This document shows, piece by piece, positions 22,375 through 62,338 of a stretch of DNA of 64,000 nucleotides. This DNA comes from Akkermansiaceae bacterium. GTDB taxonomy: Bacteria; Verrucomicrobiota; Verrucomicrobiia; Verrucomicrobiales; Akkermansiaceae. Below the pieces are notes generated by a model. It saw only the letters and a list, made by a program, of their open reading frames with translations. It was not told the DNA's origin and did no database searches. Where the stretch lies: NCBI GenBank assembly GCA_903934285.1, contig CAIZNN010000212.1, positions 1-64,000 of the forward strand. Reading direction: 5' to 3'. How positions within the stretch are numbered: the first letter of the stretch is position 1; each line of letters starts with the position of its first letter. The translations under genes were made by a program, and so were the position numbers.

Positions 22375-22406
22375 GCGCATGAATTGGGCGGTTTGAAAAG
22401 CGCATG
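22375..22406. repeat. IS21 left terminal inverted repeat
   Basis: It begins GCGCATGAATTGGGCGG and ends in a second GCGCATG. It is the inverted partner of 25,708-25,739, with three mismatches. Confidence 0.88.
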
Positions 22407-23133: not shown

Positions 23134-23449
23134 CGGGCATATCCAGAACCGGTCGCCCGAAGCCCTCGCCCTCTACCTGTTCCTCTGCACCGTGGCCGAC
23201 GCGCAGGGCGCGAGCTATTACTCCGACACCGCCGCCGGAAAAATCCTCTCGTTTTCCTCCGTCCAATTGCGCGAAGCCCGGATCGAGTTGGTGACCTCCG
23301 GATTGATCGCTTACCGCAGCCCGTTCTATCAGATATTGAGTCTGGAACCCAAACCCGCCGTTCCGATAGTCCGGGCACCCGAACCCCGCTTGGGCGAGGT
23401 CCGTTCCATCGGCGAAATCCTTCGTGCGATGATGGAGGTGCCGCAATGA
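23048..23449 (+). CDS. IS21 passenger ORF, winged-helix-like protein
   Basis: This 133-aa protein starts MKTKPILCPERLRHVPRQ. The segment SPEALALYLFLCTVADAQG...SYYSD...ILSFSSVQLREARIELVTSGLIAY resembles a replication-initiator-type winged helix (inference). Its stop overlaps the istA start (ATGA at 23,446), so it is translationally coupled to the transposase. The open frame extends upstream to 22,844, but that part overlaps the previous gene and lacks conserved character. Confidence 0.65.
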   Translation: MKTKPILCPERLRHVPRQFSWIDQRLVRDGHIQNRSPEALALYLFLCTVADAQGASYYSDTAAGKILSFSSVQLREARIELVTSGLIAYRSPFYQILSLEPKPAVPIVRAPEPRLGEVRSIGEILRAMMEVPQ

Positions 23450-24912
23450 TTGATTACGAAACCTATTGCCGGATCCGCCTCTTCCATCGGGAGCGCGGCC
23501 TGAGCTTCAACCAGATCGCCGCCGAACTGGGGATCCGCCCGCAAACGGTGGCCAAATACGCCAACCTCGCTACCTTCCCGCGCCGCCGCGGCATCAAACG
23601 TCCGAGCAAGCTAGACCCGTTCAAGCCCGCAATCACCCGCTGGCTTGAACGCCATCCTTACACCGCCACCCAGATCTATCAGCGCCTGTGTGCCGACGAG
23701 GGATACACCGGCGGCTTCAGCATCGTGAAGGCCTACGTGCGGGCCGTGCGCCCGGTGCGCCACCCGGCCTTCCTCACTCTCGCTTTCGCTCCCGGCGAAG
23801 CCGCTCAAGTGGACTGGGGATGCGCTGGCACCATCACCCTGGGCAACACCCGCCGCCGCTTGTCCTTTTTCGTCATGGTCCTTTGCCACAGCCGCATGGC
23901 CTATGTCGAGTTCACCTGCGGCGAGGCCATGGAACACTTCCTCGCCTGCCATCGCAACGCGCTGGAGTTTTTCGGCGGCACGCCCGGCGTCATCCTCATC
24001 GACAACCTCAAGACCGGGGTGCTCAAACATCCTTTCGGCGAGCGGGCAGTCTTCAATCCCCGCTATCTGGACTTCGCCGCCCATTACGGGTTCGAACCCC
24101 GCGCCTGCAACGTGCGCAAAGCCAACGAAAAAGGCCGCGTCGAAAGCGGCGTCGGTTATGTGAAGAAAAACTTCCTCGCCGGACTCGAACTTCCTAACAG
24201 CCTTGGCGGCGTCAATACGGCGGCCCGCCGGTGGATGGACTCCATCGCCAACGTGCGCGACCACCGCGCAACGCGCAAACCGCCCGTTGAACTCTTCCTG
24301 ATAGAAAAGCCCGCCCTGCGTCCGTTGCCAACCGTGGCCGGCGACACCTCGGTCACGCGTATCGTCAGGGTCACCAACCGTTGTCGTGTCGTCATGGACA
24401 CCAACCGCTACTCCGTGCCTGCCGCCTACGCCTCACAACGCCTCATTCTCGTGGCGTTGGCCGAGCACATCTGCCTCTATCACTCCTACAACCTCGTCGC
24501 CTCCCATCCGCGCTGCTACGAGCGCCACCGCGACTTCGAAAACCCCGACCACGTCAAAGACATCCTCGCCCAGCGACACCGTGCCAGGGACGCCAAGTGG
24601 CTGATGACCTTTTATGCCCTAAGTCCGCAGGCCGAATACTATCACCAACAGCTCACAGCCCGCAGCCTCCAAGTCCGCGTCCACGTCAACAAGATCGTCG
24701 CCCTGACCGACATCTACGGCCCCGATAAAGTCCGCCTTGCCATGGAGGACGCCATCGCAAGCCAGGCGTTCTCCAGCGAATACATCGAAAACATCCTCCA
24801 ACAGCGCGAACGCCACACCCCGCAGCCCGGCCCCCTGCATCTAACACGCCGCGCCGACCTCCTCGACATCGAGCTGCCGTTCGCCGACCTAACCCTCTAC
24901 GACCCGAAATAA
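23446..24912 (+). CDS. istA: IS21-family transposase
   Basis: This 488-aa DDE transposase has an N-terminal HTH (ERGLSFNQIAAELGIRPQTVAKYA). The catalytic core has the first Asp in QVDWGCAGT near residue 124, the second Asp in VILIDNLKTGVLKH near 187, and the Glu in ANEKGRVESGVGYVKKNF near 233. The C-terminal half is typical of IstA. It makes the DNA cleavages and joinings of transposition with the helper IstB, which starts 6 bp downstream. The length is normal (about 500 aa) with no disruption. Confidence 0.93.
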   Translation: MIDYETYCRIRLFHRERGLSFNQIAAELGIRPQTVAKYANLATFPRRRGIKRPSKLDPFKPAITRWLERHPYTATQIYQRLCADEGYTGGFSIVKAYVRAVRPVRHPAFLTLAFAPGEAAQVDWGCAGTITLGNTRRRLSFFVMVLCHSRMAYVEFTCGEAMEHFLACHRNALEFFGGTPGVILIDNLKTGVLKHPFGERAVFNPRYLDFAAHYGFEPRACNVRKANEKGRVESGVGYVKKNFLAGLELPNSLGGVNTAARRWMDSIANVRDHRATRKPPVELFLIEKPALRPLPTVAGDTSVTRIVRVTNRCRVVMDTNRYSVPAAYASQRLILVALAEHICLYHSYNLVASHPRCYERHRDFENPDHVKDILAQRHRARDAKWLMTFYALSPQAEYYHQQLTARSLQVRVHVNKIVALTDIYGPDKVRLAMEDAIASQAFSSEYIENILQQRERHTPQPGPLHLTRRADLLDIELPFADLTLYDPK

Positions 24913-24918
24913 CAAACC

Positions 24919-25665
24919 ATGAAAACCGACCCCACCACCCTTGACTCACATCTCGAAACCTTGCGCCTGCCCTTCATCAAAGAGCACTGCCAAACATTGG
25001 CCACCGCAGCCGCCAAAAACTCCATCGCCCATTTCGACTACCTCGCCCAACTCATCGAAGGCGAAGCCGCCTTGCGTGCCGACCGCGCTGTCGCCAGGCG
25101 CATCCAAGCGGCACGCTTCCCCGTCATCAAAACCCTCGACACCTTCCGCTGGGACTGGCCCAAGAAAATCAATCGCCTTCAAATCCAGGATCTCTTCCGA
25201 CTCCAGTTCGTCCACGATAAAGCCAACGTCATCTTCCTGGGCACCGTCGGCCTCGGCAAAACCCATCTCGCCACCGCGCTTGGTCACGCCGCCTGCCAGC
25301 AGGGCATAAGCGTTCTCTTCGCCAATGCCATCGACGTGGTTAACACGCTCAGCGCCGCACAACTCAAAGGCAACCTCAAAACCGAGTTGCGAAGATATAC
25401 CACTCCGTCACTCGTCGTCCTTGATGAGGTCGGCTACCTGCCGATCGACCAGCACGGGGCGGACCTTCTCTTCCAGGTCATCAGCGCCCGCTACGAACGC
25501 GGTTCCATCGTGCTGACCACCAACAAAGCCTTCAAACAGTGGCCCTCCATCTTCAACGGCGACTCCACCATCACCTCCGCCGTCCTCGACCGGCTTCTCC
25601 ACCACGGCGAGGTTGCCGTGATCGAAGGCCCAAGCTACCGCATGAAAGACCGCCACGAAACCTAA
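24919..25665 (+). CDS. istB: IS21-family helper ATPase
   Basis: This 248-aa AAA+ ATPase selects the target DNA and stimulates IstA. Walker A is GLGKTHLATALGHAACQQG near residue 112 and Walker B is SLVVLDEVGYLPIDQ near 172. The sensor region is GSIVLTTNKAF near 193, and the C-terminus has RLLHHGEVAVIEGPSYR. The length and order match the family. It is followed 42 bp later by the right inverted repeat. Confidence 0.94.
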   Translation: MKTDPTTLDSHLETLRLPFIKEHCQTLATAAAKNSIAHFDYLAQLIEGEAALRADRAVARRIQAARFPVIKTLDTFRWDWPKKINRLQIQDLFRLQFVHDKANVIFLGTVGLGKTHLATALGHAACQQGISVLFANAIDVVNTLSAAQLKGNLKTELRRYTTPSLVVLDEVGYLPIDQHGADLLFQVISARYERGSIVLTTNKAFKQWPSIFNGDSTITSAVLDRLLHHGEVAVIEGPSYRMKDRHET

Positions 25666-25707
25666 CACAACCGCCACACCCAACATGCCAAGGCATCTCG
25701 CTATTGC

Positions 25708-25739
25708 CATGCGCTTTTCAAATCGCCCGGTTCATGCGC
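25708..25739. repeat. IS21 right terminal inverted repeat
   Basis: On the minus strand this reads GCGCATGAACCGGGCG..., ending GCGCATG. It is the partner of 22,375-22,406. Confidence 0.88.
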
Positions 25740-25792
25740 CATTCGCACCACCGCCCTCAAAGCAACCGGGTGGCCTCGAAGAAAGTAAAGAA

Positions 25793-25867
25793 CCTCGGGG
25801 CAAGCCCCGAGGCATTTTCAGAATATGAATTCAGAAGATCACAGAACAAAGCCGAAGCAAGCTTCGG
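25793..25867. repeat. Double-hairpin repeat element
   Basis: Two perfect short-loop hairpins lie 39 bp apart. The first is CCTCGGGGC-AA-GCCCCGAGG (25,793-25,812), followed by CATTTTC. The second is CCGAAGC-AA-GCTTCGG (25,852-25,867). Both have the same two-base AA loop. They sit between the IS21 right end and the broken phosphatase gene. The first could terminate transcription leaving istB. Confidence 0.7.
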
Positions 25868-26248
25868 GGTATCCGACCCAAAGGGAATGAACTGATCCAC
25901 GCACCCCGCCCGGAGCATCTGGAGGCCGTTTTCCAATTCGCCGACAGTATCCCGGACGAACCCCTGCTCGTCCACTGTTGGGCCGGTGTTTCCCGAAGTA
26001 CCGCCGTGGCGCTCGCATTGATTGTCCGAGCCATGCACTTCGACGGATATTCGGAGGATGAAATCGTGACTGAGGCCTGCGGCACCCTGCTGGCGATCCG
26101 ACGTCAAGCAGCGCCCAATCCTCTGGTTCTGGAAACCGGACTCGCGCTGTTTCTTGATTCCGCACCCGCCAGGTGCCTGTCGGTTAGACTGGTCAATCAC
26201 CCAGCGCTTTTCCAGAACCGCCACAAGGGCGCGTCGCCGGCGACATAG
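25829..26248 (+). pseudogene. 5'-truncated dual-specificity/tyrosine phosphatase
   Basis: The frame after a stop at 25,826-25,828 reads ...IHAPRPEHLEAVFQFADS, then PLLVHCWAGVSRSTAVALAL. The HCxxGxSRS P-loop is the signature of cysteine phosphatases (Cys nucleophile, Arg phosphate ligand). It ends at 26,248. No ATG, GTG or TTG start exists between the upstream stop and the P-loop; the first possible start (GTG 26,006) lies after the catalytic Cys. The first ~50 residues expected in the family are gone, replaced by the double-hairpin region. This is a decayed gene, probably cut by rearrangement next to the IS21. Confidence 0.72.
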
Positions 26249-26455
26249 CGGTGAACTTCCATGCCCTTGTAGCGCGACACTCCTCTCGGCGCGTCCGTGT
26301 CAATGAGAGTCATTCTGCCACTGCGGGTCTGATTGACAATTCGGGAGAAAAAACCAGTCGGGAGAAAAGACCTCGGGCAGGTGAGGCCGTCCGACAAGCC
26401 AATCAGCACGCTAAAACTTCACCTCCGCCTGGAAATCCGTGGGTGGTATTTCGTG

Positions 26456-28885
26456 CTATCCTCCTATTTTCGGACCTTTGCCTTGCCCGGATTTCCCTGG
26501 AGGCGGCAGCGTTGGCTTCTTCATTTCCGGTGCCTTTGGCCTCGCATCGATGATCTTACCAGCTTCTTTCCCAAGCGTGGCGTCATTCTGTTTGATGATG
26601 TTAAGCGCCTGTTCAAGCTGTAGGTCAGCCTGTCGAAGACGGTCATACTCGTCTTTTAGCACCGCCTTCAGTTCCGCCTCTTCTTTTTTCGTGCCGATCA
26701 GATAGTTTGCGAGGCTGTTGCCAAAGATATGGCGGGTGAGCCCCTCCAGGGCCACCCGCGTTTGAGTCGCGACGCCACCGTGGAATTTCCCAACTTCTTT
26801 TTGGATTTGGGTCTTTAGTCCGTCTTCACCCATCTCCTTGGTTTCCGGAGTCCGGCCGCCTTGGATTTGGCCAAGGGTATCCCGGAGAGCTTCAACCCGA
26901 ACGCCGGATTCATATTCCGTTTTTGCATCCACGAGGTCCTGGCGGATTTCCACATCGCCTTTTCCTGCCGGCGCCACCTTTCCGAAGAACTCGAACACGA
27001 ATGCCAGTCCGTCGCTGACGCCTTTGGAGATCAACCCCGAAACCCGCTTGTTAAGCGCCACATCCGCCACGGTTTCGAGTTTTTTGGCATCCGAGCCGAC
27101 GGGAGCCTCGGCCCCAAGCTTGGTGATGACCCAAGTCCAAGCCCCGACTTTTCCCCTTTCCTCGGCAGCCTTCTCAACGGCCTTTTCCTTTCTCCCCAGC
27201 GCGCTCTTGATGCGAGTCATCCACGTGGAAACCGTCGGCTCCTGCGTTTCCTCGTCACCCTGTGACGCTGGGGACTCCCCGGTTGCCGCCACCAGGCCTT
27301 CAGGGTCGGCCAGATCGCGCCACGCCTCTTCCAATTCCCCGAAAATCTCCGCCTTGTCGTCGTCGACCCGCGACGCCAGCTTTTCAAGCCGTGACGATTC
27401 CTCCAAGCCCATCCCTTTGATCTCCTTGATTTTCGCTTCGATCTTCTCGATTTCCTGTGTGGTTGCCATTACCGCTTCTTCGGCTTCTATCAACCTCTTC
27501 GCGACATCGGCGTTGTGGCGGTAGAGGAAACTCTGACCGGCCTCACGGGTGCTTCCCTCCTCAACGTATTTGCGGGCGTCCTTGACGCCGGCGGCAATCA
27601 ACTTTTCCTTCGCCGAAGCCGGCAACTCGTCGACCACGTTGCTCCGCCATTGCCGCTCCAACCACACATCCAGATATTGCTTTTCCAAGAATTCATCACT
27701 CATCGCCGCCTTGAACCGGAAACCGTTATTCCGGTCATATTTGGAAATCACCTGTTGTCGAAGCTCTTCAAGACGTTCCGGAGATTCGTGATTTTCACCC
27801 ACTTTTCCCCGCGCTGTCTCAATTGCCCTCGTTAGATTGAGTTTAAACCTCAGTGAATATCCGAGAATGGCCTTATTATTAAGGCTACGCAAAGCGGTTC
27901 TTTTCTGATAGATCTTTTCAAAGTCCGCAGGGACCTCCGTGGGCTCCGGATCAAGCTGATTTTTCGCCACCATCTCCTTAATCCGCTTGCCCACCGCAGC
28001 TGGCACCGCACGGCGATTTTCCGCCTCTAGCGACACCCGAGCTTTTTCCGAAGCTTCGGAATGCCAGTTAGCGATGGCCTGCTTCAGCTGTTTCTCGTCC
28101 CGATCCACCGGAAGCACCATCGTGTATTGAATATGGATGTGGAGATCGGAATCCCGCATCCGGTGGACGGCCGCCGAAACCACCTCACATCCAACTTTCG
28201 CTTCAAATTCCTGCACCGTCCGGTCGATAGCCCGGTCGAGTTGAGCATCAGTAAGCTGGCCAGCAAAGCCTTCCTCACCGACGGCGCGGGCCTCATGAGG
28301 CATCAGTCGCAGTGTTATGGATCGCATAGGGCTGGCCCCCTTGCGTTTCAGTTTGTCCGTGGAGCGGAGCAGGCCATCCTTCGTTGGCTTTCCGTCCTTT
28401 CCTATGATATGGCGCTCGGCATATTCCTCGCCGACGGTGACGATCTGCCCCGTGTTCTCGCGGTAATTCCACCGGGCATCAAGCAGGTTCTCGTTGTGGT
28501 CCACCCACCGCTGTCCCTCGCTGACTGGCACACGTTCCGGCGGGCTGCCTTTCTGGTAGATCCGAAGAGCCACGATTTCGTCGCTCAGAGTAAACATTGC
28601 CAAGGTAGTCCCCGGCAGATAGACCAAAGACTTCCCGTCGGCATCCAACACCTTGCCTTCCTCGTCCTCGTCGAGCGGGGGTAATGGCGGCCATTTCATC
28701 GCCTTGCGCAGCTGTTTAATTTGCATCGCCAAAGCCGCCAGGTGGTCCTTTTTCAGCGTTTGCAGCATCCCCATGTGTTCGAGCATGCCGATTCCCGTCA
28801 CCAACTTAGATGTGGATGACAAAGTCCGGGCATCCTTGTTCTGGCGCACCTTGGTCCCCTTAGCGGGTCCTTTGTTGGAGTTCAT
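26456..28885 (-). CDS. Large relaxase/mobilisation-like protein with HUH motif
   Basis: This 809-aa, highly charged protein has DLHIHIQYTMVLP near residues 248-260. The two His spaced by one residue (H249, H251) fit an HUH metal site of relaxases or rolling-circle initiators. The upstream segment MRSITLRLMPHEARAVGEEG resembles the start of such a domain. The C-terminal two-thirds are predicted coiled coil (long Glu/Lys/Ala runs) ending in a Pro/Gly-rich tail. The catalytic Tyr cannot be placed with confidence. A rolling-circle Rep is the alternative. Its 5' side faces an AT-rich 555-bp non-coding region, a likely place for oriT or oriV. Confidence 0.5.
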   Translation of the reverse strand: MNSNKGPAKGTKVRQNKDARTLSSTSKLVTGIGMLEHMGMLQTLKKDHLAALAMQIKQLRKAMKWPPLPPLDEDEEGKVLDADGKSLVYLPGTTLAMFTLSDEIVALRIYQKGSPPERVPVSEGQRWVDHNENLLDARWNYRENTGQIVTVGEEYAERHIIGKDGKPTKDGLLRSTDKLKRKGASPMRSITLRLMPHEARAVGEEGFAGQLTDAQLDRAIDRTVQEFEAKVGCEVVSAAVHRMRDSDLHIHIQYTMVLPVDRDEKQLKQAIANWHSEASEKARVSLEAENRRAVPAAVGKRIKEMVAKNQLDPEPTEVPADFEKIYQKRTALRSLNNKAILGYSLRFKLNLTRAIETARGKVGENHESPERLEELRQQVISKYDRNNGFRFKAAMSDEFLEKQYLDVWLERQWRSNVVDELPASAKEKLIAAGVKDARKYVEEGSTREAGQSFLYRHNADVAKRLIEAEEAVMATTQEIEKIEAKIKEIKGMGLEESSRLEKLASRVDDDKAEIFGELEEAWRDLADPEGLVAATGESPASQGDEETQEPTVSTWMTRIKSALGRKEKAVEKAAEERGKVGAWTWVITKLGAEAPVGSDAKKLETVADVALNKRVSGLISKGVSDGLAFVFEFFGKVAPAGKGDVEIRQDLVDAKTEYESGVRVEALRDTLGQIQGGRTPETKEMGEDGLKTQIQKEVGKFHGGVATQTRVALEGLTRHIFGNSLANYLIGTKKEEAELKAVLKDEYDRLRQADLQLEQALNIIKQNDATLGKEAGKIIDARPKAPEMKKPTLPPPGKSGQGKGPKIGG

Positions 28886-29440
28886 GGATTGATCCTAATG
28901 GTTTTTCTAATAATTGCAATATAACATTGAATATTTGTTAACAAGAGAGGGGCAGGATTTTCTGTCCATTTCTGCGAAATGTTAGAAAATTCCGTGCGAT
29001 CTACCGATCACACCCTGCCCCCCCCTTGTGCTGCCGCAGGCCTGCTAACGCAGATGAATTGCCCTCCCGCTCACGCGGGATGCCCCAATCGGACCCGGCT
29101 TGTGGCTAGGCCCCACCCGCACACAGCAAATTCCTGATGCGTCGCATCCTATTGTTTATCAATAGCATGTGAAGTATACTTCGCCAGCAATCTGGCGAAT
29201 TTGATGCCGCCGAACTGGTCTTACCGACTTCTCATCCTCATGCCTCTTGTTGCTCGCGGCTTCCCGCACCGAGGAATTTGCGATCATCGATGGGTCATGT
29301 AACGAGCTGCAATGAAGCCCAATGAATTTAGAACGAAGAAGCGCTGAATTTTTTAACGAAAAATATTGATTTACGAAGGATTCCGTATAGAATACATTGC
29401 ATTCAAAAGAATTTACGAATGAACATGACAAAGAATTACA
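28886..29440. other. AT-rich intergenic region, candidate oriT/oriV
   Basis: This 555-bp stretch has no convincing gene. It is much more AT-rich than its surroundings, has a small CCCGCTCACGCGGG hairpin (about 29,070-29,083) and several ACGAA-type repeats (TTAACGAA, two of ATTTACGAA) between about 29,355 and 29,420. It separates the divergent relaxase-like gene and the unknown gene at 29,441, the usual position for a transfer or replication origin. This function is inference. Confidence 0.4.
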
Positions 29441-30337
29441 ATGTTTTGCAATGAAATAAACGAACCCAAAATGAACACGGAACGCGCAAAATCACTCCTG
29501 GCCGCTTATGATCTCAAGGCTGCCAATACCGCAAAGGCCAAACCTAGGCCGGATTCGACCAGCCAGGAAATCCGGATCGTGCTGATCTTGATGGTTTTTG
29601 ATCATCGCCCCGCCGAGTGGGGATATGACTTCATGGTCGAACAGGATATCCTGACTCGAGAAACGGACCGGAAAAAGAGGAAAAACCAGATTCGAAAAAT
29701 CAGCGGCTGGTGTTCGAAAATCAGAGTGGAGGAAATGGGCCTGCCCCCATTGCACCGGGGACTCATCCAACCACCCGATATGTTGGTTGCCCGGGAGCGT
29801 TGGGACGTGCTGAATCCGCGCCCGAGCGACGAAATATTGCTCTCCGGCACATTGAAATTCACTCCGGCGGACTATTCGGACCTCGATCTGGGGCCTTCGC
29901 AACATCGGAAAAAACTAAAAGAGAAGGGGACCAAATCAATCAAATCCGCCACGTCGGCCAAACCCGCGCCCACGCTACAATCAGCGGCCCCCGCAACAAT
30001 CGCGAACCCGGAAGGGGCATCGAGCGCCTGTGAAAATCCGCAGGAAGGCGAAGATAGGGAAAGTACGCCAGTTCCTGGCTTCACCCAGACACCAATGCCG
30101 GTGATAGCACCTGCCCAGAGTCGCACCGCGGACGATATTCTTGATGACATCTGGAGAGTCCCCATGGGTGACACGCAGGCTTGGGAATCAGAAGTCCTGC
30201 GTTTGAAATGCGAAAGATTCCGCCTTTGCAATGCCCGTGACCCTGACATGCTGGACAAAAGTGACCTAGCGAAGGGCCTGAAAAATACCTGGAGGGAAGC
30301 AATAAAAAGGGCCAAGGCAAGAGAATCAGTAACATGA
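29441..30337 (+). CDS. Plasmid-type hypothetical protein
   Basis: This 298-aa protein is unrecognised; a start at 29,471 (MNTERAKSLLAAYDL) is about equally likely. Residues 40-120 look folded (IRIVLILMVFDHRPAEWGYDFMV, then a basic KKRKNQIRKISGWC segment that may bind DNA). Residues 160-215 are low-complexity Ala/Pro/Ser, and the C-terminus is helical (ADDILDDIWRVP...). Position next to the AT-rich region and upstream of the ParA repeats suggests replication or transfer control, but no motif proves it. Confidence 0.5.
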   Translation: MFCNEINEPKMNTERAKSLLAAYDLKAANTAKAKPRPDSTSQEIRIVLILMVFDHRPAEWGYDFMVEQDILTRETDRKKRKNQIRKISGWCSKIRVEEMGLPPLHRGLIQPPDMLVARERWDVLNPRPSDEILLSGTLKFTPADYSDLDLGPSQHRKKLKEKGTKSIKSATSAKPAPTLQSAAPATIANPEGASSACENPQEGEDRESTPVPGFTQTPMPVIAPAQSRTADDILDDIWRVPMGDTQAWESEVLRLKCERFRLCNARDPDMLDKSDLAKGLKNTWREAIKRAKARESVT

Positions 30338-30370
30338 TTCCTCGTCGATTTCATTCATGATTGAGCTACC

Positions 30371-30922
30371 TTTCGCGCCCCGAACACATCGGTCGGGGGC
30401 AGCGTTCACCGCGCTAGCTGAGGCGAATTGCCGCAACACGAAATCCGTCGCCTTGTCGTTGTCACGGTGAACCGTATCTAAGGCAAACCATAAAACCTCC
30501 CTACAAATCCACCTTTCGCGCCCCGAACACGTCGGTCGGCAGCAGCGTTCACCTCGCTGGCTCAGGAGAATTGTCGCAACACGAAATCCAACGCCCTGTC
30601 GTTGTCACGCTGAGCCGTATTAATAGTTGAACAATGAAACCTCAATGCCAATCCACCTTTCTCACCCCCGAACACATCGGTAGGGGGGCAGCGTTCACCT
30701 CGCTGGCGCAGGCGAATTGCGCAACACGAAATCCAACGACCTGTCGTTGTCACGGTGAACCGTATTAATAGTTGAACAATGAAACCTCAATGCAAATCCA
30801 CTTTTCGCGCCCCCAACACATCGGTCGGGGGCAGCATTCAACATGCTGGCGCTGGCGAATTGCCACAAAACAAAATCCACCGCCATGATGTTGTCACGGT
30901 GAACCGTATTTAAAATCAAACC
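30371..30922. repeat. Four tandem ~144-bp repeats upstream of parA
   Basis: Units begin at 30,371, 30,514, 30,658 and 30,803 with TTTCGCGCCCCGAACAC or a variant, so the spacing is 143-145 bp. Each carries a TTGTCACGGTGAACCGTAT-type segment. In units 2, 3 and 4 an ATGAAAC lies 120-121 bp from the unit start; the one in unit 4 is the parA start codon, and unit 1 has ATA instead. The array is thus a repeated copy of the parA leader. Two 44-codon frames (30,634-30,768 and 30,779-30,913) open inside it but encode unrelated peptides, so non-coding function is more likely. A partition centromere is the best reading. Confidence 0.8.
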
Positions 30923-31720
30923 ATGAAACTTCCATATTTCGAAATCAAAAAACGCAGTAAAGTCACCCTCGTCGTTTTTGTCGGACGAGCAAAGGTCGGG
31001 AAATCATTCCTCCTCAATTTGATCGCCGAGGTTTGTGGCCTGTACAACAATAAGCTCTGTGTGCTTTTTGATTCCGACGAGCAGGCCGATCGCGATTTCA
31101 CCCGCGTCGATGACGTCGTGAAACCGATGCCAATGAAATGCTTCGACGACATCGCTCGGATCACGGGGCAGGCACCGGTCGGATGCTCGTTGATCTTGGG
31201 AGATACCGCAGGTGCCAGCCAAGGATTCATGGCCGAGGTCTGCTCCAACCAAAAATTTCTGGCTAACTCAAACCTGGAACTCGTGGCGGTGATTGTTACT
31301 CCCGATCTTCTTGAGTACGGAGACCTCACCAAACGATGGCTGCAAATTTTCAAGAACTCCCCCCGTGGGTTTCTGATTCAAAACGAACTGGAATGCTCCG
31401 GTAGTGACGGCCCCGGCTTACCACTCCCGGAAGGCATCGAAGCTCCAGCTGAAATGACAATTATGAGGGTTCCTCACCTTGATCGAATCGTAGCCAACGA
31501 AATTTCCAGGATTGCCGTCAAAATCGGTGACGTTGCCGACGGACGCCTCGATGCAAAGGATAGTGAAATCCTAAACTGGGGTCCTTATCAAGACATGGCG
31601 GCATTATGGGCCAACGAAACGATTACAGCGCTCGCTCCGTTAATCCGGTTCATTTGCGATACGGTTAACGCCAACGCAGCAAAGCCCGCATCACCCCATA
31701 AACCAATCGCCAGTTCATGA
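30923..31720 (+). CDS. ParA-like partition ATPase
   Basis: This 265-aa protein has a deviant Walker A near residues 17-26 (VGRAKVGKSFLLNLIAE, Lys-x-Gly-Lys-Ser) followed by the strand LCVLFDSDEQADRDF and a Walker B-like CSLILGDTAG near residue 95, the layout of ParA/MinD-type NTPases. Such proteins segregate plasmids or islands with a centromere-binding partner. Its stop overlaps the next start (ATGA at 31,717-31,720). No ParB is recognisable, though the downstream gene may play that role. The tandem repeats directly upstream are the likely centromere and promoter. Confidence 0.68.
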   Translation: MKLPYFEIKKRSKVTLVVFVGRAKVGKSFLLNLIAEVCGLYNNKLCVLFDSDEQADRDFTRVDDVVKPMPMKCFDDIARITGQAPVGCSLILGDTAGASQGFMAEVCSNQKFLANSNLELVAVIVTPDLLEYGDLTKRWLQIFKNSPRGFLIQNELECSGSDGPGLPLPEGIEAPAEMTIMRVPHLDRIVANEISRIAVKIGDVADGRLDAKDSEILNWGPYQDMAALWANETITALAPLIRFICDTVNANAAKPASPHKPIASS

Positions 31721-32328
31721 GTTTGGAAAATTCAAATTTACCCCAAGACCCCAACGGTGGAAGGTACGTCCCGTCCTCGTTGGAGGAGTTTCGGGACAAG
31801 ATGCAGAGGCTTGTCCCCAAATCCTCTTGGCCCTTGATAGACCGTATCTACTATACATTCACACACATCAAATGTCAGAGGGTAACATTGGATGTGGATT
31901 TGAAAATGCTTGTTCTCGACGCGATATGCTGCTCGCACAAATCTGCTGGCAAAGTTCAGAAAATAAACGCTGATTATGCCGAAAGGAGGATCCGCATCGC
32001 AATCCGTGAAGAAATGGCACCTTGGATCAAGCTCTCGAAGGCGGACCGTCTTCACATCGGGTGGGGTCCTGTTTTGGCCATCGCCCTTCTCGCGGCCGTC
32101 ATTGGAGCTTCCGTGGACCGACTGTTTTTACCGAAACCCAATCGATACCGGTACACGCAAGAGAAAGACAATGTGTTCACAATGGCTGAGATTCCAGACA
32201 AAGTTCTGCCAATTTCCATTACTCCCGCGCCAGCATTCAACAAAGTAACGCCGCCCCAAGCAACGGAACAGGAGTCCGGCGACTTCTTGGAGCCACCAGA
32301 ATTCTCCCCCACCAGAAAGGGGCGCTGA
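31717..32328 (+). CDS. Hypothetical single-pass membrane protein coupled to parA
   Basis: This 203-aa protein is unrecognised. Residues 1-100 are soluble and contain several basic helices. A single transmembrane segment lies near residues 111-133 (GPVLAIALLAAVIGASVDRLFL), followed by a Pro-rich tail of about 70 residues. The start overlaps the ParA stop, so the two products are made together. A membrane-anchored partner of the ATPase is plausible but unproven. Confidence 0.55.
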   Translation: MSLENSNLPQDPNGGRYVPSSLEEFRDKMQRLVPKSSWPLIDRIYYTFTHIKCQRVTLDVDLKMLVLDAICCSHKSAGKVQKINADYAERRIRIAIREEMAPWIKLSKADRLHIGWGPVLAIALLAAVIGASVDRLFLPKPNRYRYTQEKDNVFTMAEIPDKVLPISITPAPAFNKVTPPQATEQESGDFLEPPEFSPTRKGR

Positions 32329-32474
32329 TCAACAATTGAATCTCCTTCTTTTTGAATTGTGGCGGTTGCCATTGTCATCATGCCCATTCTGCTGTATCTG
32401 ACTCCCTGTCCGTGACAGGATTGGAGTCGGATGACCAGTGAACCCGCATCTGTCACGCTCGTCCGTCTACAATA

Positions 32475-33179
32475 ATGATGCCCTCAAATTCAACTACCCC
32501 GCCCCCTGTACCAGCAGGCCCCACAGTCTATGACCTGCTCAAGGGCATCGCTTGTTTTAAAAACAGCGAAGTCGCCGAAGATGCGAAAAAGGCTAAAATC
32601 CTTTTCGATGAATTGCTGGCAACCTACGAGTGGAGGTTGCTGAGCATCATTAAAAAACAACTTCCCTACAGTGGGGCTACTGTACACCTCGACCCCGGTG
32701 ATCTATACTGGAAAGTCGCCCATAAAATTTGGGAGAAAGCTGACCGCTTCATCCCCAGCAGAACCGACCCCAATGGAATCCGGGAGCAATTCCTAAGATG
32801 GACGTACGTAATTCTCAGGAATATCATCAGTGATACCATAGCCCCCTTGAAAGAGGAGCTAACCAGCACCGAGTCCTGGCAGGATCATTGGGATCAATTC
32901 AATCAAGATGTCCCTGACAAATCGGATCGGGCGAAACTTGCAGTCATAGTTTTGGAGAAAATGGACCCTAAATACGCAGAGGTTCTTTTCTGGACCGTTT
33001 CTGTGAGACCAACCGACGGATCTCAAATGCGTCCGTCCAAAGAGGACAGGGATAAGATCTGCCGTGATCTTGATATCACGCCAGATAATTTACGTCAGAG
33101 GAGAGCGAGAGCATTCCAGATCCTCAAGAGAGAGATCAAGATCCTTGAGAAAGAGAACGCTGCCCGTCTCGTAAAATAA
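32475..33179 (+). CDS. Sigma-70 family (ECF-like) sigma factor
   Basis: The 234-aa protein has a region-2-like helical block (LDPGDLYWKVAHKIWEKADRFIP...EQFLRWTYVILRNIISD, residues ~74-128). After a linker there is a region-4-like HTH near the C-terminus (KICRDLDITPDNLRQRRARAFQILKREI), matching ECF sigma factors in order and size. No anti-sigma gene is next to it, although the preceding gene encodes a single-pass membrane protein that could serve. It probably switches on island genes. Family assignment is by pattern only. Confidence 0.6.
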   Translation: MMPSNSTTPPPVPAGPTVYDLLKGIACFKNSEVAEDAKKAKILFDELLATYEWRLLSIIKKQLPYSGATVHLDPGDLYWKVAHKIWEKADRFIPSRTDPNGIREQFLRWTYVILRNIISDTIAPLKEELTSTESWQDHWDQFNQDVPDKSDRAKLAVIVLEKMDPKYAEVLFWTVSVRPTDGSQMRPSKEDRDKICRDLDITPDNLRQRRARAFQILKREIKILEKENAARLVK

Positions 33180-33224
33180 ACCACTACATTCAGCCAGTTT
33201 ACAACCAAACCAACACAGCCCAAT

Positions 33225-36941: not shown

Positions 36942-37280
36942 ATGGCCCGCCCGCATTGTCCCCGACGCATCGCAACACTTCCGGGAGTCGTTTATTTCAA
37001 ACCGGCGGGCATCCCGCTGCGTGACTTGGAAGAGCGTGTGCTCTCGCTCGATGAATTCGAGGCCCTGCGCTTGGCCGACGTGGAAGGAATGCCCCAGCTT
37101 GAAGCGTCCCGCCTCATGGGGATCTCCCGGCAGACATTCAGTCGCATCCTGGCCCGTGCCCGCCAGACCGTGGCCACCTGTCTGACCAAAGGCATGGCGG
37201 TGCGCATCGAAGGCGGGGTCGTCCATCTCGATTCCGGACCAAAATCAAGGCTCGGTTGTCGCAAGAATCCAGCTTCATAG
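36942..37280 (+). CDS. UPF0251/DUF134 DNA-binding protein
   Basis: This 112-aa protein begins MARPHCPRRIATLPGVVYFKPAGIPL, the DUF134 hallmark (Arg/Cys/Pro start and FKPxGIP). A sigma-region-4-like HTH follows: LDEFEALRLADVEGMPQLEASRLMGISRQTFSRILARARQTVATCL (recognition helix SRQTFSRILARAR). Members are predicted regulators commonly next to NifX/NifB-type iron-molybdenum proteins, as here. It is the only HTH regulator recognised in the 27-kb metal/redox region and is the leading candidate to bind the repeated palindrome. That site is not found before its own gene, so no autoregulation by it is visible. Confidence 0.9.
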   Translation: MARPHCPRRIATLPGVVYFKPAGIPLRDLEERVLSLDEFEALRLADVEGMPQLEASRLMGISRQTFSRILARARQTVATCLTKGMAVRIEGGVVHLDSGPKSRLGCRKNPAS

Positions 37281-37336: not shown

Positions 37337-37358
37337 GTTTTGGGCGTATGCCCAGAAC
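37337..37358. promoter_or_regulatory. Palindromic operator site 1 (nifX-cydAB)
   Basis: This 22-bp near-perfect palindrome has arms GTTTTGGGC and GCCCAGAAC around GTAT. It ends 3 bp before the start codon at 37,362. A -35-like TTGCCG stands 17 bases before TATGCC (37,347-37,352), which would be the -10, placing the promoter inside the operator and the likely transcript start at or beside the ATG. Confidence 0.78.
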
Positions 37359-37361: not shown

Positions 37362-37769
37362 ATGACGGACGGAACCCACATTCGAGTGGCAGTCGCTGAG
37401 GAAGAAAAGGAAGACGTGTTGGCTCCGCGCCTGGGACGGGCGGTCAAGTTTGCGTTGTTTGACCTGAGGGGCGGCGAGGTTAGAGGGCCGTCTTATCGTG
37501 TCCGTCATGACAACCCGGGGGATGCCTGCGACCATCATGCTGAACTCGCAGCCCTGCTGCACGATTGCCAAGCAGTGATTGCGGGGTCAGCCGGACCGCA
37601 CATGACACAACGCTTGCAGGATCTGGGTATTGAAGTGGTGGCAACCTCCGAAAGAATTTCTCCGGTCCGCTTGGTTACCCGATACCTTGCTGGCACCCTT
37701 GCTCGGGCTCCAGTGGCGTGCGCCGGGGACTCAAATCAAGAAATACAATTTCCGGTCTCTGTCTCATGA
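37362..37769 (+). CDS. NifX/NifB-family iron-molybdenum cluster-binding protein (copy 1)
   Basis: This 135-aa protein has the dinitrogenase iron-molybdenum cofactor-binding fold. HIRVAVAEEEKEDVLAPRLGRAVKFALFDL fits the usual VAVA...D...HFGRA..F..yd start (with RLGRA here), and a CDHHAELAALLHDCQAVIAG core follows. Such proteins carry metal-sulfur clusters. The ATG lies 3 bp after operator site 1, leaving no room for a ribosome-binding site. Its stop overlaps the cydA start (ATGA), so cluster protein and bd oxidase are made from one transcript. No nif structural genes occur, so a nitrogenase role is unlikely. Confidence 0.85.
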   Translation: MTDGTHIRVAVAEEEKEDVLAPRLGRAVKFALFDLRGGEVRGPSYRVRHDNPGDACDHHAELAALLHDCQAVIAGSAGPHMTQRLQDLGIEVVATSERISPVRLVTRYLAGTLARAPVACAGDSNQEIQFPVSVS

Positions 37770-49728: not shown

Positions 49729-49750
49729 GTTATGAGCGTGCGCCAATAAC
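49729..49750. promoter_or_regulatory. Palindromic operator site 2 (MBL hydrolase-thrS)
   Basis: The arms are GTTATGAGC and GCCAATAAC around GTGC. It lies 13 bp before the MBL start codon on the minus strand. The ~18 bp beyond its right arm (CAAGCAAGCCCTTTC) match the flanks of sites 3 and 4. Confidence 0.8.
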
Positions 49751-52098: not shown

Positions 52099-52120
52099 GT
52101 TATGAGCATACGCCAATAAT
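52099..52120. promoter_or_regulatory. Palindromic operator site 3 (def / ZIP transporter)
   Basis: The arms are GTTATGAGC and GCCAATAAT around ATAC. The right flank CAAGCACTTTCGC is almost identical to that of site 4. It lies between divergent def (62 bp from its first start) and the ZIP gene (136 bp), so it could control both. Confidence 0.8.
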
Positions 52121-52255
52121 ATGCAAGCACTTTCGCCCGAAAAAATCGAACGCCCGTCTTACTTTCACTGTGCTTTCCGGTATTTTGTGCCGTTGGCAGA
52201 ATGAGTGTCGCTGGCAGTGACCAACAGCAAACCACCTGATTTCATCCGGCTTATT

Positions 52256-53149
52256 ATGAACAACCTTCTGGTTGCCCCGCAGGCGCAACTCGCGCTCTAT
52301 TGCCTGCTGGTGGCGCTGGCCTCGCTGGCGGGCGGGTGGATTTTGCTGGCCGTGCGCCTGACTCATCTGCGGCTGCAAATCGCGGGCAGCTTCGTGGCCG
52401 GGCTTATGCTGAGCATGGCCTTACTCCACTTCGTCCCGCATGCCGTCCATCAAAACCACTCGATTGGCCAGACGATGCGGTGGGTCTTGTCGGGGTTTCT
52501 GGCGATATTCCTCTTGCAGCGGTTCTTCCCCTACCATCACCACGATGTTTCGGACGAGGCACCGGAACGCTGGGGGACCAAACCCGACGAGACTCCCACC
52601 TTGGCAGAACAAAGTGCCAGCCATCTTTCCTGGATCGCGACAACCATTGGCATGACACTGCACTCGCTGGTGGGGGGCATGGCCCTGGCCGCCGCCGTGA
52701 GCGCCGACGCCGGCGGCCTCTCAGGTTGGATGGGGCTTGGCACAGCACTGGTTATCATTCTTCACAAACCCTTTGACGCGCTGGCCGTTTCGACGGTGAT
52801 GACCGCCGGCAGATGCCCGATTGCCAGCCGCCACCTGATCAACACCCTGTTCGCATTTGTCACCCCGTTGGGCGCGGTGCTGTTTTACATGGGCGTCAGC
52901 CGGTACGCCGCCGGCAATCCCAAAATCCTCGGCGACGCGCTGGCTTTTTGCGCCGGAACCTTTCTCTGCATCGCCGGGGGAGGCATCCTGCCCGAGATGC
53001 AATTTCACGCCCATGACCGTATCAAGCTTTCGCTCGCCCTGCTGGCAGGCGTCGCTGTCGCCGTACTCGTGGGATGGTTTGGCCACAGCGAGCCCGTCCC
53101 CCATGAGCCGGGGATTTCGCACCCAAACGCCCACCGCTCACACCCATGA
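52256..53149 (+). CDS. ZIP-family metal transporter
   Basis: This 297-aa inner-membrane importer of divalent metals (zinc, iron or manganese) starts MNNLLVAPQAQLALYCLL. It has eight hydrophobic segments. FVPHAVHQNHSIG and HHHDVSDEAPE provide a His-rich loop, TLHSLVGGMALA the TM4 metal His, and LHKPFDALAVS the TM5 His. The frame runs 17 codons upstream but without conserved character. Its stop overlaps the radical SAM start (ATGA), so import and the next two genes form one operon behind operator site 3. Confidence 0.9.
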   Translation: MNNLLVAPQAQLALYCLLVALASLAGGWILLAVRLTHLRLQIAGSFVAGLMLSMALLHFVPHAVHQNHSIGQTMRWVLSGFLAIFLLQRFFPYHHHDVSDEAPERWGTKPDETPTLAEQSASHLSWIATTIGMTLHSLVGGMALAAAVSADAGGLSGWMGLGTALVIILHKPFDALAVSTVMTAGRCPIASRHLINTLFAFVTPLGAVLFYMGVSRYAAGNPKILGDALAFCAGTFLCIAGGGILPEMQFHAHDRIKLSLALLAGVAVAVLVGWFGHSEPVPHEPGISHPNAHRSHP

Positions 53150-56133: not shown

Positions 56134-56155
56134 GTTATGGGCATACGCCAATAAC
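56134..56155. promoter_or_regulatory. Palindromic operator site 4 (sufB / COG0523 GTPase)
   Basis: The arms are GTTATGGGC and GCCAATAAC around ATAC; this is the best match to the consensus. It lies 15 bp before the GTPase start codon and 12 bp before the leader frame of sufB. The right flank ACAAGCACTTTCGC is shared with sites 2 and 3. Confidence 0.82.
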
Positions 56156-56170: not shown

Positions 56171-57151
56171 ATGACACACACCGACCGACGCCTGCGCGTG
56201 ACTGTTCTTTCCGGCTTTTTGGGATCCGGCAAAACCACCCTTCTGAACAATCTGCTGGCGACCATGGACCGCAAACGGGTGGCGGTGATTGAAAACGAGC
56301 TTGGAGCGATCTCAATCGACCACCATTTGGTCCTGCGCACTGAATTGGGCTCGCTGGAAACTGTGCAGGGGCGCACTTGCTGTGAGGCGAGGGAGGAATT
56401 CCTGCGGCTGGTGCATCAGATCGCCCAGGTGAAGGAGGATTACGACCATCTGATTGTGGAGACCACCGGGGTCGCCCATCCCGGCATGATCGCCCACGCG
56501 ATTTTGGGTGATTCCTTCCTCCAGCAGCACCTGGAACTCGACGGTGTGGTCACCGTGGTGGACGCCAAACACATTCTCGATCACATCGGTCAGGACGGAC
56601 ACGCCGAGGAACAAGTGGCCTACGCGGATCTGCTGGTCATCAACAAGATCGATCTGGTTTCTGACACCGAACTGCGCTGGGTCGAGGACGCGCTGATCGG
56701 CATTAACGCCGATTGCGAACGAGTCCTTGCGCAAGACGCGCAGGTTCCATCCGAGCGAATTCTGGACATCGGTGGCTTTGATTTGAAGCGCATTTCGCTA
56801 GGCGTAGGCGGATGCTCCAAAACCGCTAACGCACCTGCATCGGACAAGCCACACCGCCACGAAATCGAGACCATCTCGTTTGAGATTCCGGGCGAACTGG
56901 ATGCCAACCGCTTTAGCCAGTGGCTGCAACTCTTCATGGTCAGCCATACGGGCGATTTGTTTCGCGCCAAGGGCATCCTCGCCCTCCAAGCGGTGCCTGA
57001 ACGTATGGTATTTCAATGTGTGCATGGCATTTTCCGACTCTCCCTTGGCCAGCCATGGGTGATGGTCAACCGACGCTCGCAACTCGTCTTCATCGGCCGC
57101 AACCTGCGGCGGGCTGATATTTTATCAGGATTGGAGGCATGCAAGATATGA
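56171..57151 (+). CDS. COG0523 (CobW/ZNG-type) metal-chaperone GTPase
   Basis: This GTPase of about 326 aa starts [29 protein letters not shown] (Walker A near residue 15-22). It has an ETTGVAHPG Walker B region, the NKIDLV base-recognition motif near 157 and the CobW C-terminal domain. The family's CxCC metal motif is altered: the sequence after ETVQG is RTCCEAREE, with only the last two Cys. Members deliver zinc or cobalt and are often controlled by metal repressors. The frame open to 56,105 crosses operator site 4, so the ATG at 56,171 is preferred. It is coupled to the next gene by ATGA. Confidence 0.88.
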
Positions 57152-57813
57152 ACACTGACTCGATGGCGGAACATTTCGACCGCAAGGCTGCGGATTGGGA
57201 TGCGAATGAGCGGCACCTTGCCCTGACCGCAGATATTCTCGAAGCGGTTACGCGGGAATGGCCCGTCAATTTATCGCTACGACTGTTAGATTATGGTGCG
57301 GGGACCGGACTTTGTTCGCTGGCGCTGGCTCCGCGTTGCGCAAGTGTTCTTGCGATGGACGTGTCGGCCGGGATGTTATCGCGTCTGGAGGAAAAAGCCC
57401 GGGCGAGCGGGATGACCCACCTGCAAACCCGCCAGCAGGATCTTTGCTCGGAACCGCTCTTAGGCCAGCGCTTCGATGTGATCCTCTGCGCGATGACACT
57501 GCACCATGTCGCCGACATCGAACCTCTCCTGGAGCGTTTTCATGCGATGCTGGAACCCGGTGGATTCATCGCCATCGCCGATCTCGATAAAGAAGATGGA
57601 ACCTTTCACGACGAACCAGCCGGAGTCCATCACCACGGTTTCATCCGCGAATGCCTGAGCCGGCAAATGATGGCTGCGGGATTCACATACGTGACCATAG
57701 ATACCGTCCATAGTATCCGGAAAACCCGGAAATCCGGCATCATCGAGTATCCGGTTTTTTGCGCCATCGGCCGAACGAGACCCGCTGATAGTGACTCACA
57801 GCCACCGGTCTAA
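57148..57813 (+). CDS. Class I SAM-dependent methyltransferase
   Basis: This 221-aa protein starts [23 protein letters not shown]. The SAM loop [15 protein letters not shown] lies near residue 45, with [11 protein letters not shown] and [23 protein letters not shown] after it, the standard Methyltransf_11 order. The substrate is unknown. The ATG overlaps the GTPase stop; an in-frame ATG 9 bp upstream (57,139) is also possible. The DUF89 gene follows after 3 bp, so the three are one transcription unit. Confidence 0.87.
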
Positions 57814-57816
57814 CAG

Positions 57817-58710
57817 ATGATAACTTCCACCGAATGCATTCCCTGCTTCATCAGACAGGCGGCCGAAGCCATCGCCTTGAGTGGGTTGGATTCATTTCAA
57901 CAGGCGAGGATTCTGCGAAAAGTCATGCATGATCTGGCAGACCTGGATTGGCAAGTTAGCCCACCGATGGTTTCGGCTCACTTACACCGGATCATCCGCG
58001 AAATGACTGGCGATCCCGACCCGTATCTCAGCGTCAAGAACCGGATGAACCGGCTTGCGCTGGACGCGCTGCCCGCGTGCAGGCAACTTATCACGGACGC
58101 TCTCGATCCACTCCATGCGATCATCCGGCTTGCCGTGGCCGGCAATTTGCTTGATAGCGGTGCGAAGACCCAAATCGCACCCGAGGACCTGCCGCAATTG
58201 TTTGCCACCTTGTGGGACCAGCCGCTGGCTGGCGACCCGCAAGAACTTTTCCACGCGGCGGAACAGGCCGAACGCATCCTCTTTCTCGCCGACAACGCTG
58301 GCGAGATTGTGTTGGATCGCCTCCTCATTGAGGCGTTGCCGATGGCCAAAGTGACCGTCGCGGTGCGCGGCAAACCGATCCTCAACGATGCCTTGCGTGA
58401 AGATGCCGCCTTGGCAGGCATCACGGCCCTCGTCCCGGTGATCGACAATGGCTCCGCCGCGCCTGGCACGGTCCTTGCGGATTGCACGGCGGAATTTTGC
58501 GCCCACTTCAAGCGGGCCGATCTGATCATCGCCAAAGGCCAGGGCAATTACGAAACCCTCTCGGAAACACGGGCTCCGATCTTCTTCCTCTTCACCGTCA
58601 AATGCCCGCTCGTGGCGGCTCAAATCGGGGAGCCCACCGGGACACTGGTCGCGAAGAAATCCGCGCTCTGGTCGGCAGGACCAACACGGATTTCAAGAAA
58701 ACATCGCTGA
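57817..58710 (+). CDS. DUF89/ARMT1-type metal-dependent phosphatase
   Basis: This 297-aa protein has the DUF89 landmarks STECIPCFIRQAAEA at the N-terminus (CxxC), ILFLADNAGEIVLDRLLIE near residue 166 with the metal-binding Asp/Asn, and LIIAKGQGNYETLSE near 232. Family members are damage-control phosphatases that hydrolyse sugar phosphates and damaged cofactors with Co, Mn or Ni. The N-terminal CxxC subtype is common in archaea and anaerobes next to NifX-like genes. It follows the methyltransferase by 3 bp. Confidence 0.88.
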   Translation: MITSTECIPCFIRQAAEAIALSGLDSFQQARILRKVMHDLADLDWQVSPPMVSAHLHRIIREMTGDPDPYLSVKNRMNRLALDALPACRQLITDALDPLHAIIRLAVAGNLLDSGAKTQIAPEDLPQLFATLWDQPLAGDPQELFHAAEQAERILFLADNAGEIVLDRLLIEALPMAKVTVAVRGKPILNDALREDAALAGITALVPVIDNGSAAPGTVLADCTAEFCAHFKRADLIIAKGQGNYETLSETRAPIFFLFTVKCPLVAAQIGEPTGTLVAKKSALWSAGPTRISRKHR

Positions 58711-61476: not shown

Positions 61477-61917
61477 TCAGGCAGGAGGAGGCAGGTCCGG
61501 CATGGCCACGAATTTGGCAGACGCCCGCACAGCGAGAACTCCTCCTTGATGAACCTCGGCACGACAAAGGTAAATCCCGTGCCGTTTGGACTCCACCCAG
61601 CCGGAGACGTGGACCATACCCATCACATTCACGCTTTCAAGATAACGGATGGTTAACTCCGCCGTCACCGCAGTCACACTCATCGCGAAGAGCGCGTGTA
61701 CCATCGAACTGTCCAACAGAGTCGCAATCACGCCGCCATGAATACGGTCCGCATAGCTCAGAAATGCAGCGGATGGTTGCCAATCCGCTGCTGCGACTCC
61801 ATTGTCATCAACCTCAAAATGAAGCTTCAGCCCGTGGACATTGCATCCGCCACAGGCAAAACAATCGCGGTGCGAGTCTTTCAACGTGGACGAATCAGTG
61901 GTGGCATTCGTGTCCAT
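61477..61917 (-). CDS. PaaI-type hotdog-fold thioesterase
   Basis: This protein of about 146 aa starts MDTNATTDSSTLKDSHRDCFACGG. The hotdog core has LSYADRIHGGVIATLLDSSMVHALFA near residue 50-75 (with the HGG catalytic region) and TIRYLESVNVMGMVHVSGWV. An N-terminal CFACGGCN cluster suggests a metal or redox site, as in a known subgroup. The start overlaps the nifX-2 3' end; longer starts (61,926, 61,962) overlap it more. It is probably co-transcribed with nifX-2. Substrate: an acyl-CoA, not predictable. Confidence 0.8.
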   Translation of the reverse strand: MDTNATTDSSTLKDSHRDCFACGGCNVHGLKLHFEVDDNGVAAADWQPSAAFLSYADRIHGGVIATLLDSSMVHALFAMSVTAVTAELTIRYLESVNVMGMVHVSGWVESKRHGIYLCRAEVHQGGVLAVRASAKFVAMPDLPPPA

Positions 61918-62314
61918 CGTGGTCATGGTGCCCGCCACAGCGTGAGTTCTCCTGATTGGCACGTGCCAGCTTGCCTAACAGGCAGGCGCTTGCCAACGCA
62001 GAAGGCTGCACGTCACTGTCGGCCAGAAATGCTTCGATGCCCGCATCCGCCAGCAGGATCAGCGCCCGCTCGCCAATCGCGGAAACCACCACTGCGTCCA
62101 CCTTTTGTTGCTCAAGCCACTTCGGCAGCGATCCAGGTTTGTGCTCTGGCGCGGTGGAAACTTCCTGATTTCCCAAACGGAGAGTCTTGCGATCCCCCTC
62201 ATAAATTAGAAATACCTTCGTGCCGCCAAAATGTTGGCTAAAAGCACCATCTGCCATCGGAATGGCAATTTTGACGATTTCCCTGTCTTGGATAGTCCGT
62301 TTGTTGTCGCTCAT
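61895..62314 (-). CDS. NifX/NifB-family cluster-binding protein (copy 2) with His tail
   Basis: This 139-aa protein starts MSDNKRTIQDREIVKIAIPMADG, then AFSQHFGGTKVFLIYE, the classic NifX start with HFG. VVVSAIGERALILLADAGIEAFLA is the central core. The C-terminus is a metal-binding tail, RCGGHHDHDGHECHH, absent from copy 1. The ATG lies 2 bp from operator site 5 with no ribosome-binding site in between. It probably binds an Fe-S or other metal cluster or carries metal. Confidence 0.87.
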   Translation of the reverse strand: MSDNKRTIQDREIVKIAIPMADGAFSQHFGGTKVFLIYEGDRKTLRLGNQEVSTAPEHKPGSLPKWLEQQKVDAVVVSAIGERALILLADAGIEAFLADSDVQPSALASACLLGKLARANQENSRCGGHHDHDGHECHH

Positions 62315-62316: not shown

Positions 62317-62338
62317 GTTCTGAGCGTATGCCCATAAC
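62317..62338. promoter_or_regulatory. Palindromic operator site 5 (nifX copy 2)
   Basis: On the minus strand the arms are GTTATGGGC and GCTCAGAAC around ATAC. It ends 2 bp before the nifX-2 ATG. A TTGACC -35-like hexamer lies 16 bases before TACGCT, the probable -10 within the palindrome. This is the same geometry as site 1. Confidence 0.78.

Follow-up and report, generated by a model that had tools for sequence, protein, structure and literature searches.

A 22-bp palindrome, GTTATKRGCRTAYGCYMATAAC, occurs five times (at positions 37337, 49729, 52099, 56134 and 62317) in the window, the 64,000-nucleotide stretch of Akkermansiaceae DNA analyzed here, against 0.08 copies expected from shuffled sequences, which raises the question of which protein reads it. 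The first-pass annotation nominated the product of a DUF134/UPF0251 gene directly upstream of the first copy, and this candidacy is supported in silico by co-occurrence across genomes, by a scan based on DNA alone and by covariation between recognition-helix residues and operator bases. Taken as a whole, the best explanation is that DUF134 is very probably a palindrome-binding transcription factor that acts as an autorepressor in most species and responds to a NifX-linked signal. The computational support covers motif identity, coupling to DUF134, residue-base covariation and promoter overlap.

The regulator gene (36942..37280, forward strand) encodes a complete protein of 112 amino acids that matches the DUF134 profile PF02001 from position 5 to 94 of 98 (E = 1.7e-20; 73.9 bits against a cut-off of 27) and resembles the sigma-70 region-4 family PF08281 (1.9e-7), in agreement with the initial description of a helix-turn-helix (HTH) of the sigma-region-4 type. 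The recognition helix of this HTH carries R63, Q64, S67 and R68, and codons 63-68 (RQTFSR; 37128..37145, forward strand) form its predicted base-reading face, as judged by residue-base covariation. Its stop codon precedes the first palindrome by 57 bp, which confirms the reported position directly upstream of that site, and a NifX-type gene follows 82 bp downstream of DUF134. The habitual proximity to NifX-type genes also holds elsewhere, since 28 of the 64 genes found beside sites or DUF134 in other genomes are Nitro_FeMo-Co genes. The assertion that this protein is the only HTH regulator between 34 and 64 kb stands for the 25 Pfam families listed for 37 ORFs of that stretch, which include no other HTH family and lie beside 35 further families.

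Predicted operator 1 (GTTTTGGGCGTATGCCCAGAAC; 37337..37358), of the G/G type, lies between DUF134 and a NifX/ORP-type gene (Nitro_FeMo-Co, PF02579, 2.9e-12; 37362..37769, forward strand), the start codon of which begins 3 bp beyond the site; this gene is both a predicted target and a possible sensor partner. The remaining four predicted operators are likewise palindrome matches. Operator 2 (GTTATGAGCGTGCGCCAATAAC; 49729..49750) is located 13 bp from the start codon of its predicted target, an MBL-fold hydrolase gene (PF00753; 48867..49715, reverse strand), while operator 3 (GTTATGAGCATACGCCAATAAT; 52099..52120) separates two divergent genes that are possible targets, encoding a peptide deformylase paralogue (PF01327; 51399..52037, reverse strand) and a ZIP-family metal transporter (PF02535, 1e-18; 52205..53149, forward strand). 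Operator 4 (GTTATGGGCATACGCCAATAAC; 56134..56155) precedes the predicted target gene of a CobW/COG0523 metallochaperone GTPase (PF02492, 3.2e-46; 56171..57151, forward strand), followed by methyltransferase and DUF89/ARMT1-like genes (57139..58710, forward strand) that probably belong to the same operon. Operator 5 (GTTCTGAGCGTATGCCCATAAC; 62317..62338), again of the G/G type, is 2 bp from the start codon of a second NifX/ORP-type gene (PF02579, 3.2e-15; 61895..62314, reverse strand), its predicted target. Beside this cluster, translations within 21700-33200 were identified by eye as a pair of IS21-type transposases (23446-25665) and the product of a relaxase-like ORF (26456-28885), which suggest an integrated mobile element.

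The whole genome (4.8 Mb, 282 contigs) contains 13 sites at three or fewer mismatches, whereas a reversed pattern used as control has no match. All 13 sites fall on three contigs: C212, to which the window belongs, C47, and C264, which carries the same gene set as the other two. The genes behind these sites encode NifX-type proteins (three), CobW (two), MBL hydrolases (one of them a remnant), Mrp, PanD, CoA-disulfide reductase, DUF89 and the ZIP/deformylase pair. Each of C212 and C47 carries one of the only two DUF134 genes in the genome, and unlike most of their relatives neither gene has a site upstream, the best match there showing 9-10 mismatches; in its own genome, DUF134 would on this evidence control its neighbors and not itself.

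Several features of this genome bear on how the gene set arose. C47 (L019) and C264 (L020) hold a second version of DUF134, CobW, Mrp, ThrRS, SufB/D-like, MBL, NifX and DUF89 genes, which may represent a true duplication or a second strain within the assembly, and the MBL gene at about L019:1107-1300 has been cut to a remnant by an internal deletion. The sites that do not belong to NifX genes share a module of approximately 60-80 bp, ttcatgYgaaagYRcttgcat[site]tgcaagaaaaaaATGac, with a start codon on either side (window positions 49729, 52099 and 56134; L019 positions 439, 6918, 9246 and 11788; L020 positions 1026 and 3571). Since the copy ahead of CobW at 56134 still contains the beginning of the MBL coding sequence (MTSLTI) in antisense orientation, expansion of the regulon seems to have proceeded through copies of one bidirectional promoter.

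A correlation between the motif and DUF134 across genomes, which the first-pass annotation had proposed as a check, is evident in 387 genomes of the same phylum (Fisher p = 6e-12). The palindrome was found at three or fewer mismatches in 45 of them and DUF134 above the cut-off in 63; both occur in 26, the motif alone in 19, DUF134 alone in 37 and neither in 305. At two or fewer mismatches, DUF134 is present in 13 of the 14 motif-positive genomes (13 versus 1, p = 2e-10), and in 18 of the 387 no more than 150 bp separate a site from the start of the DUF134 domain. The palindrome and DUF134 are both absent from three genomes of the same genus. Occurrence of the motif in genomes lacking DUF134, which had been named as grounds for abandoning the link, amounts to background (19 of 324 genomes), given that the reversed-pattern control is no rarer. 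The genome G460, with 16 matches, was considered as a counterexample and rejected, as its matches consist largely of copies of a single 22-mer, frequently situated 79-100 bp away from the end of a contig, and thus represent a repeat element. This repeat (GTTATGGGCATCCGCTCATAAT; L319-L322), of which about 14 identical copies exist, many of them 79-100 bp off contig ends, is probably an insertion-sequence end mimicking the operator.

The same coupling emerges when the search starts from the DNA alone. An exact 20-mer, TTATKRGCRTAYGCYMATAA, was sought in approximately 85,000 species genomes, for which about 15 chance matches are estimated, and at least 117 loci from about 20 phyla were recovered. 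Among the 117 loci listed, DUF134 is encoded within 8 kb or less in 93, and the site is directly upstream of DUF134 in 81, at a distance of 2-109 bp (median 19). The listed loci that have no DUF134 in the piece often show the site before genes that otherwise accompany DUF134, namely DUF89 genes (five), NifX-type genes or DUF5320.

In the converse, protein-first test, DUF134 genes were picked by profile alone and a site was defined as a match with four or fewer mismatches within 250 bp upstream. Such a site precedes 19 of 30 genes in the same phylum (control windows 0/1101), 12 of 29 in the phylum of a Desulfovibrio-type genome (control 0/856) and 2 of 4 in Pseudomonadota, from which profile matches near or below the cut-off (L296-L318) were left out because a separately built DUF134 model missed them. 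For Bacillota-type genes the site is recognizable in 6 of 30, with some background (control 19/878), and it follows that the operators of the family vary beyond one consensus; the variants seen include ATTATGTGCATATGCACACAAT and GTTATGAACATATGTTCATAAC. The operator is general in the DUF134 family but not uniform. The family itself is unevenly distributed, with genomes above the cut-off ranging from 6 of 249 in Pseudomonadota to 166 of 285 in Omnitrophota among those sampled.

The bases of the operator covary with the recognition helix. Across 124 distinct DUF134 domains that have a site, the operators divide at motif position 6 into 59 with G/G, 47 with T/T and 18 mixed. At residue 68 (window numbering; SRQTFSR), every one of the 59 G/G and 18 mixed cases has Arg, and 41 of the 45 T/T cases having a residue there show Asn; put the other way, Arg68 is accompanied by at least one G half-site in 77/77 and Asn68 by T/T in 41/41 (118/118 together). 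The mutual information between residue 68 and position 6 reaches 0.94 of 0.99 bits, while the next-best residue attains 0.51. The base at position 7 is accounted for best by residue 64 and that at position 8 by residues 67 and 64, which belong to the same helix. When only the outer arms were fixed and the 12 inner bases could vary freely, the pairing of Arg68/Asn68 with G/T had 2 exceptions in 112 proteins. All 13 sites of the genome under study contain at least one G half, as the Arg68 rule demands; its majority of mixed G/T sites (10) contrasts with the Arg68 proteins elsewhere, among which 59 are G/G and 18 mixed.

Omnitrophota genomes fetched after the residue-68 rule had been derived served as a held-out set and follow it in 26/26 cases, comprising 25 of 25 Arg68 proteins with a G half-site and a single Asn68 protein with T/T. 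The same genomes reveal a second pairing: proteins with Gln63 (ISQQTFSR) have the operator ATTATGAGTATATACTCATAAT, in which position 9 is T and not C, in 24/24 cases, and Arg63 goes with C at position 9 in 112/115 of the earlier set and 2/2 of the held-out set, although this residue 63/position 9 pairing rests mainly on one clade. The Gln63 proteins (L323-L352) constitute a paralogue class of Omnitrophota, some genomes of which encode up to five DUF134 proteins.

In a phylogeny from which the helix columns had been left out, residue 68 and position 6 each change eight times, and both classes are found within Omnitrophota, Elusimicrobiota, Ignavibacteriota, Myxococcota, Planctomycetota and the phylum of the window. 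Most of the eight changes fall on weakly supported branches, single-branch support being low because the domain is short; well-supported branches provide one independent pair only, and on these alone the independence of the residue-68 switches is formally not significant. A single helix lying in the major groove would be expected to pair residues 63-64 and 67-68 with positions 9-8 and 7-6 in linear order, as is seen here. In the proposed reading, residue 68 would read position 6, with Arg for G and Asn when it is T, and residue 63 would read position 9, with Arg for C/G and Gln for T/A; the tuning of positions 7-8 would fall to residues 64 and 67. Gln63 proteins are expected to prefer a GTATATAC core.

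The placement of the operator relative to promoters bears on its mode of action. TTGACA boxes (5 or 6 of the 6 bases matching) are most frequent 23-32 bp upstream of the operator, where 62 counts were obtained in 123 sequences. Farther upstream the background is about 0-2 counts per offset, and lesser accumulations appear at 7-8 bp and 13 bp. Combined with a 17-bp spacer, the distance of 23-32 bp puts the -10 box and the start point on the operator. At the family level, the operator, directly upstream of DUF134 in 81 of the 117 loci listed, covers this region of DUF134's own promoter, and in the genome under study TTGACC stands some 12 bp ahead of the operator in the promoters of NifX2 and NifX3, so that the -10 box falls on the operator core. 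Such an overlap corresponds to the geometry of a putative repressor blocking RNA polymerase, and it makes autorepression the most likely role of DUF134 at the family level.

An opposite mode of action has been considered, in which DUF134 binds the palindrome as an activator or sigma-like factor and the palindrome is a promoter element. The HTH does resemble sigma region 4, and the sites lie very near start codons and include hexamers (TATGCT or CATAAT) that might act as -10 boxes. This reading is nevertheless unlikely: the TTGACA box found 23-32 bp upstream in about half of the sites points to an ordinary sigma-70 promoter with its -10 box and start point covered, the domain has no counterpart of sigma region 2, and the symmetry of a palindrome is what a repressor acting as a dimer typically requires.

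A different question is whether DUF134 is merely one target of a metalloregulator. The window segment 43024-48988 encodes ZnuA, an ABC-3 permease and a threonyl-tRNA synthetase which, with CobW and the deformylase paralogue nearby, resemble a zinc-sparing set. Genes for ZnuA, ABC-3, ZIP, CobW and paralogues are typical of zinc-sparing regulons, three Fur-family genes exist in the genome, and a Fur-family gene cluster accompanies 5 of the DUF134-type loci, all of which would suit a Fur/Zur-family protein as the reader of the palindrome. Binding by a Zur/Fur homologue but not by the purified DUF134 protein had been named in advance as a reason to give up the DUF134 link, yet the three Fur-family genes are on other contigs that carry no site at all, and the palindrome is found directly upstream of neither znuA nor thrS. 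Moreover, the Zur sites reported in delta-proteobacteria are different palindromes (PMC545781), motif-positive genomes carry DUF134 well beyond chance, and the motif tracks DUF134 helix residues, unlike a site read by Fur. The Fur/Zur reading was rejected on the site-free Fur contigs and the differing Zur consensus and is now highly improbable.

A further reading, in which a mobile or repeated element (IS end, REP) or chance accounts for the palindrome and its closeness to DUF134 is hitch-hiking, has a negligible likelihood and was rejected on the strength of shuffles, reversed-pattern controls and the coupling to DUF134: unrelated matching repeats do occur (G460) and the site in the genome under study sits within a duplicated promoter module of about 60 bp, but the flanks vary between species, the site stands before non-homologous genes at a constrained position relative to the start codon and the -35 box, and its bases covary with the protein across phyla.

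For DUF134 as a repressor of its own and neighboring genes, the following mechanism can be proposed. Two HTH domains would each read one half-site in the major groove, and the dimer would probably be joined through the strands located after the recognition helix, as the DeoR precedent suggests. In most species, DUF134 bound over its own -10/start region would block RNA polymerase. In the genome under study, the operator appears to have been copied before an enlarged set of genes, namely those for NifX-type proteins, MBL hydrolase, CobW, ZIP/deformylase, Mrp, PanD and CoA-disulfide reductase. The predicted targets of DUF134 comprise NifX/ORP-type, Mrp, DUF89 and CobW genes, and DUF89 genes in other genomes carry the palindrome directly. 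DUF134-NifX fusions occur in several genomes (for instance L067, L073, L075-077, L095, L122 and L277), and together with the constant adjacency of the two genes they indicate that the NifX/ORP-type protein is likely the sensor for DUF134. The NifX/ORP-type family has been reported to hold metal-sulfur clusters (PMC6345978), and the signal is probably such a cluster, sensed by the protein adjacent or fused to DUF134. Additionally, the DUF134 proteins of L097, L098, L147, L085 and L126 end in a C-terminal zinc-ribbon-like CxxC...CPxC tail, which is possibly another metal-sensing part.

In the openly accessible papers searched, DUF134/UPF0251/COG1342/PF02001 and the motif core receive passing mentions only, and no operator, regulon or structure was found for the family. 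Within that literature, the link between DUF134 and an operator thus appears to be new, as had been anticipated. A family of unknown function thereby gains a concrete predicted operator, a target set and a mutational prediction. The link also gives a way into how anaerobes regulate their NifX/ORP and Mrp cluster-carrier operons, and it supplies a clear natural example of HTH-DNA specificity that has switched across phyla.

Among known systems, sigma-70 region 4 and ECF factors share the HTH fold (VIA Z up to 7.4 over about 57-62 residues; PF08281 1.9e-7), whereas DUF134 has no region 2 and its target is palindromic instead of a -35 element. The AlphaFold model of the window protein (pLDDT 87.5) contains helices at 36-47, 52-59 and 63-83 and strands at 86-89 and 94-96, and its structural matches are sigma region 4 domains and the DNA-binding domain of DeoR. 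A PDB sequence search with the single protein returned nothing useful; the DUF134 profile finds the HTH of Bacillus subtilis DeoR (7bhy) with E = 3.5e-6 over 38 residues, aligning ISRPTVSRLLQYAKEK with ISRQTFSRILARARQT (Foldseek rmsd 0.7 over 40).

The recognition helices of this SorC/DeoR protein (PDB 7bhy, 8r7y) and DUF134 are nearly identical (ISRPTVSRLL versus ISRQTFSRIL), and by alignment R34 and R39 of DeoR correspond to R63 and R68, the residues also picked out by covariation. The DeoR numbering in this mapping is counted from the N-terminus of that protein and is consistent with the alignment. In the DeoR-operator structures, R39 contacts G4 and T14 and R34 contacts T12 of the half-site TTGAACA, contacts for which the authors caution that the low-resolution map does not allow high confidence, and the DNA-binding domains dimerize through an antiparallel beta-sheet (PMC11229326). 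Some DUF134 sites contain TGAAC, reminiscent of the sequence that DeoR reads, although the half-sites are spaced differently. DUF134 resembles the DNA-binding part of DeoR but, at 112 amino acids, does not include the C-terminal sugar-phosphate effector domain (a double Rossmann fold), and it is therefore not filed as a SorC member; sensing seems to have been passed to the NifX-type partner or fusion.

The orp/MrpORP system of Desulfovibrio involves the same target families, an Mrp/NBP35 carrier and an ORP/NifX-type protein; its orp operons have been reported to be under sigma-54 control (PMC6345978), as opposed to the DUF134 operator described here. Set against these systems, DUF134 proteins may tentatively be regarded, with slightly more doubt than confidence, as a phylum-spanning class of minimal HTH autorepressors that use a recognition code at residues 63, 64, 67 and 68 and receive a cluster signal through a separate or fused NifX/ORP protein. 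If so, the regulator of Mrp/NifX cluster-carrier operons would sense the cluster itself.
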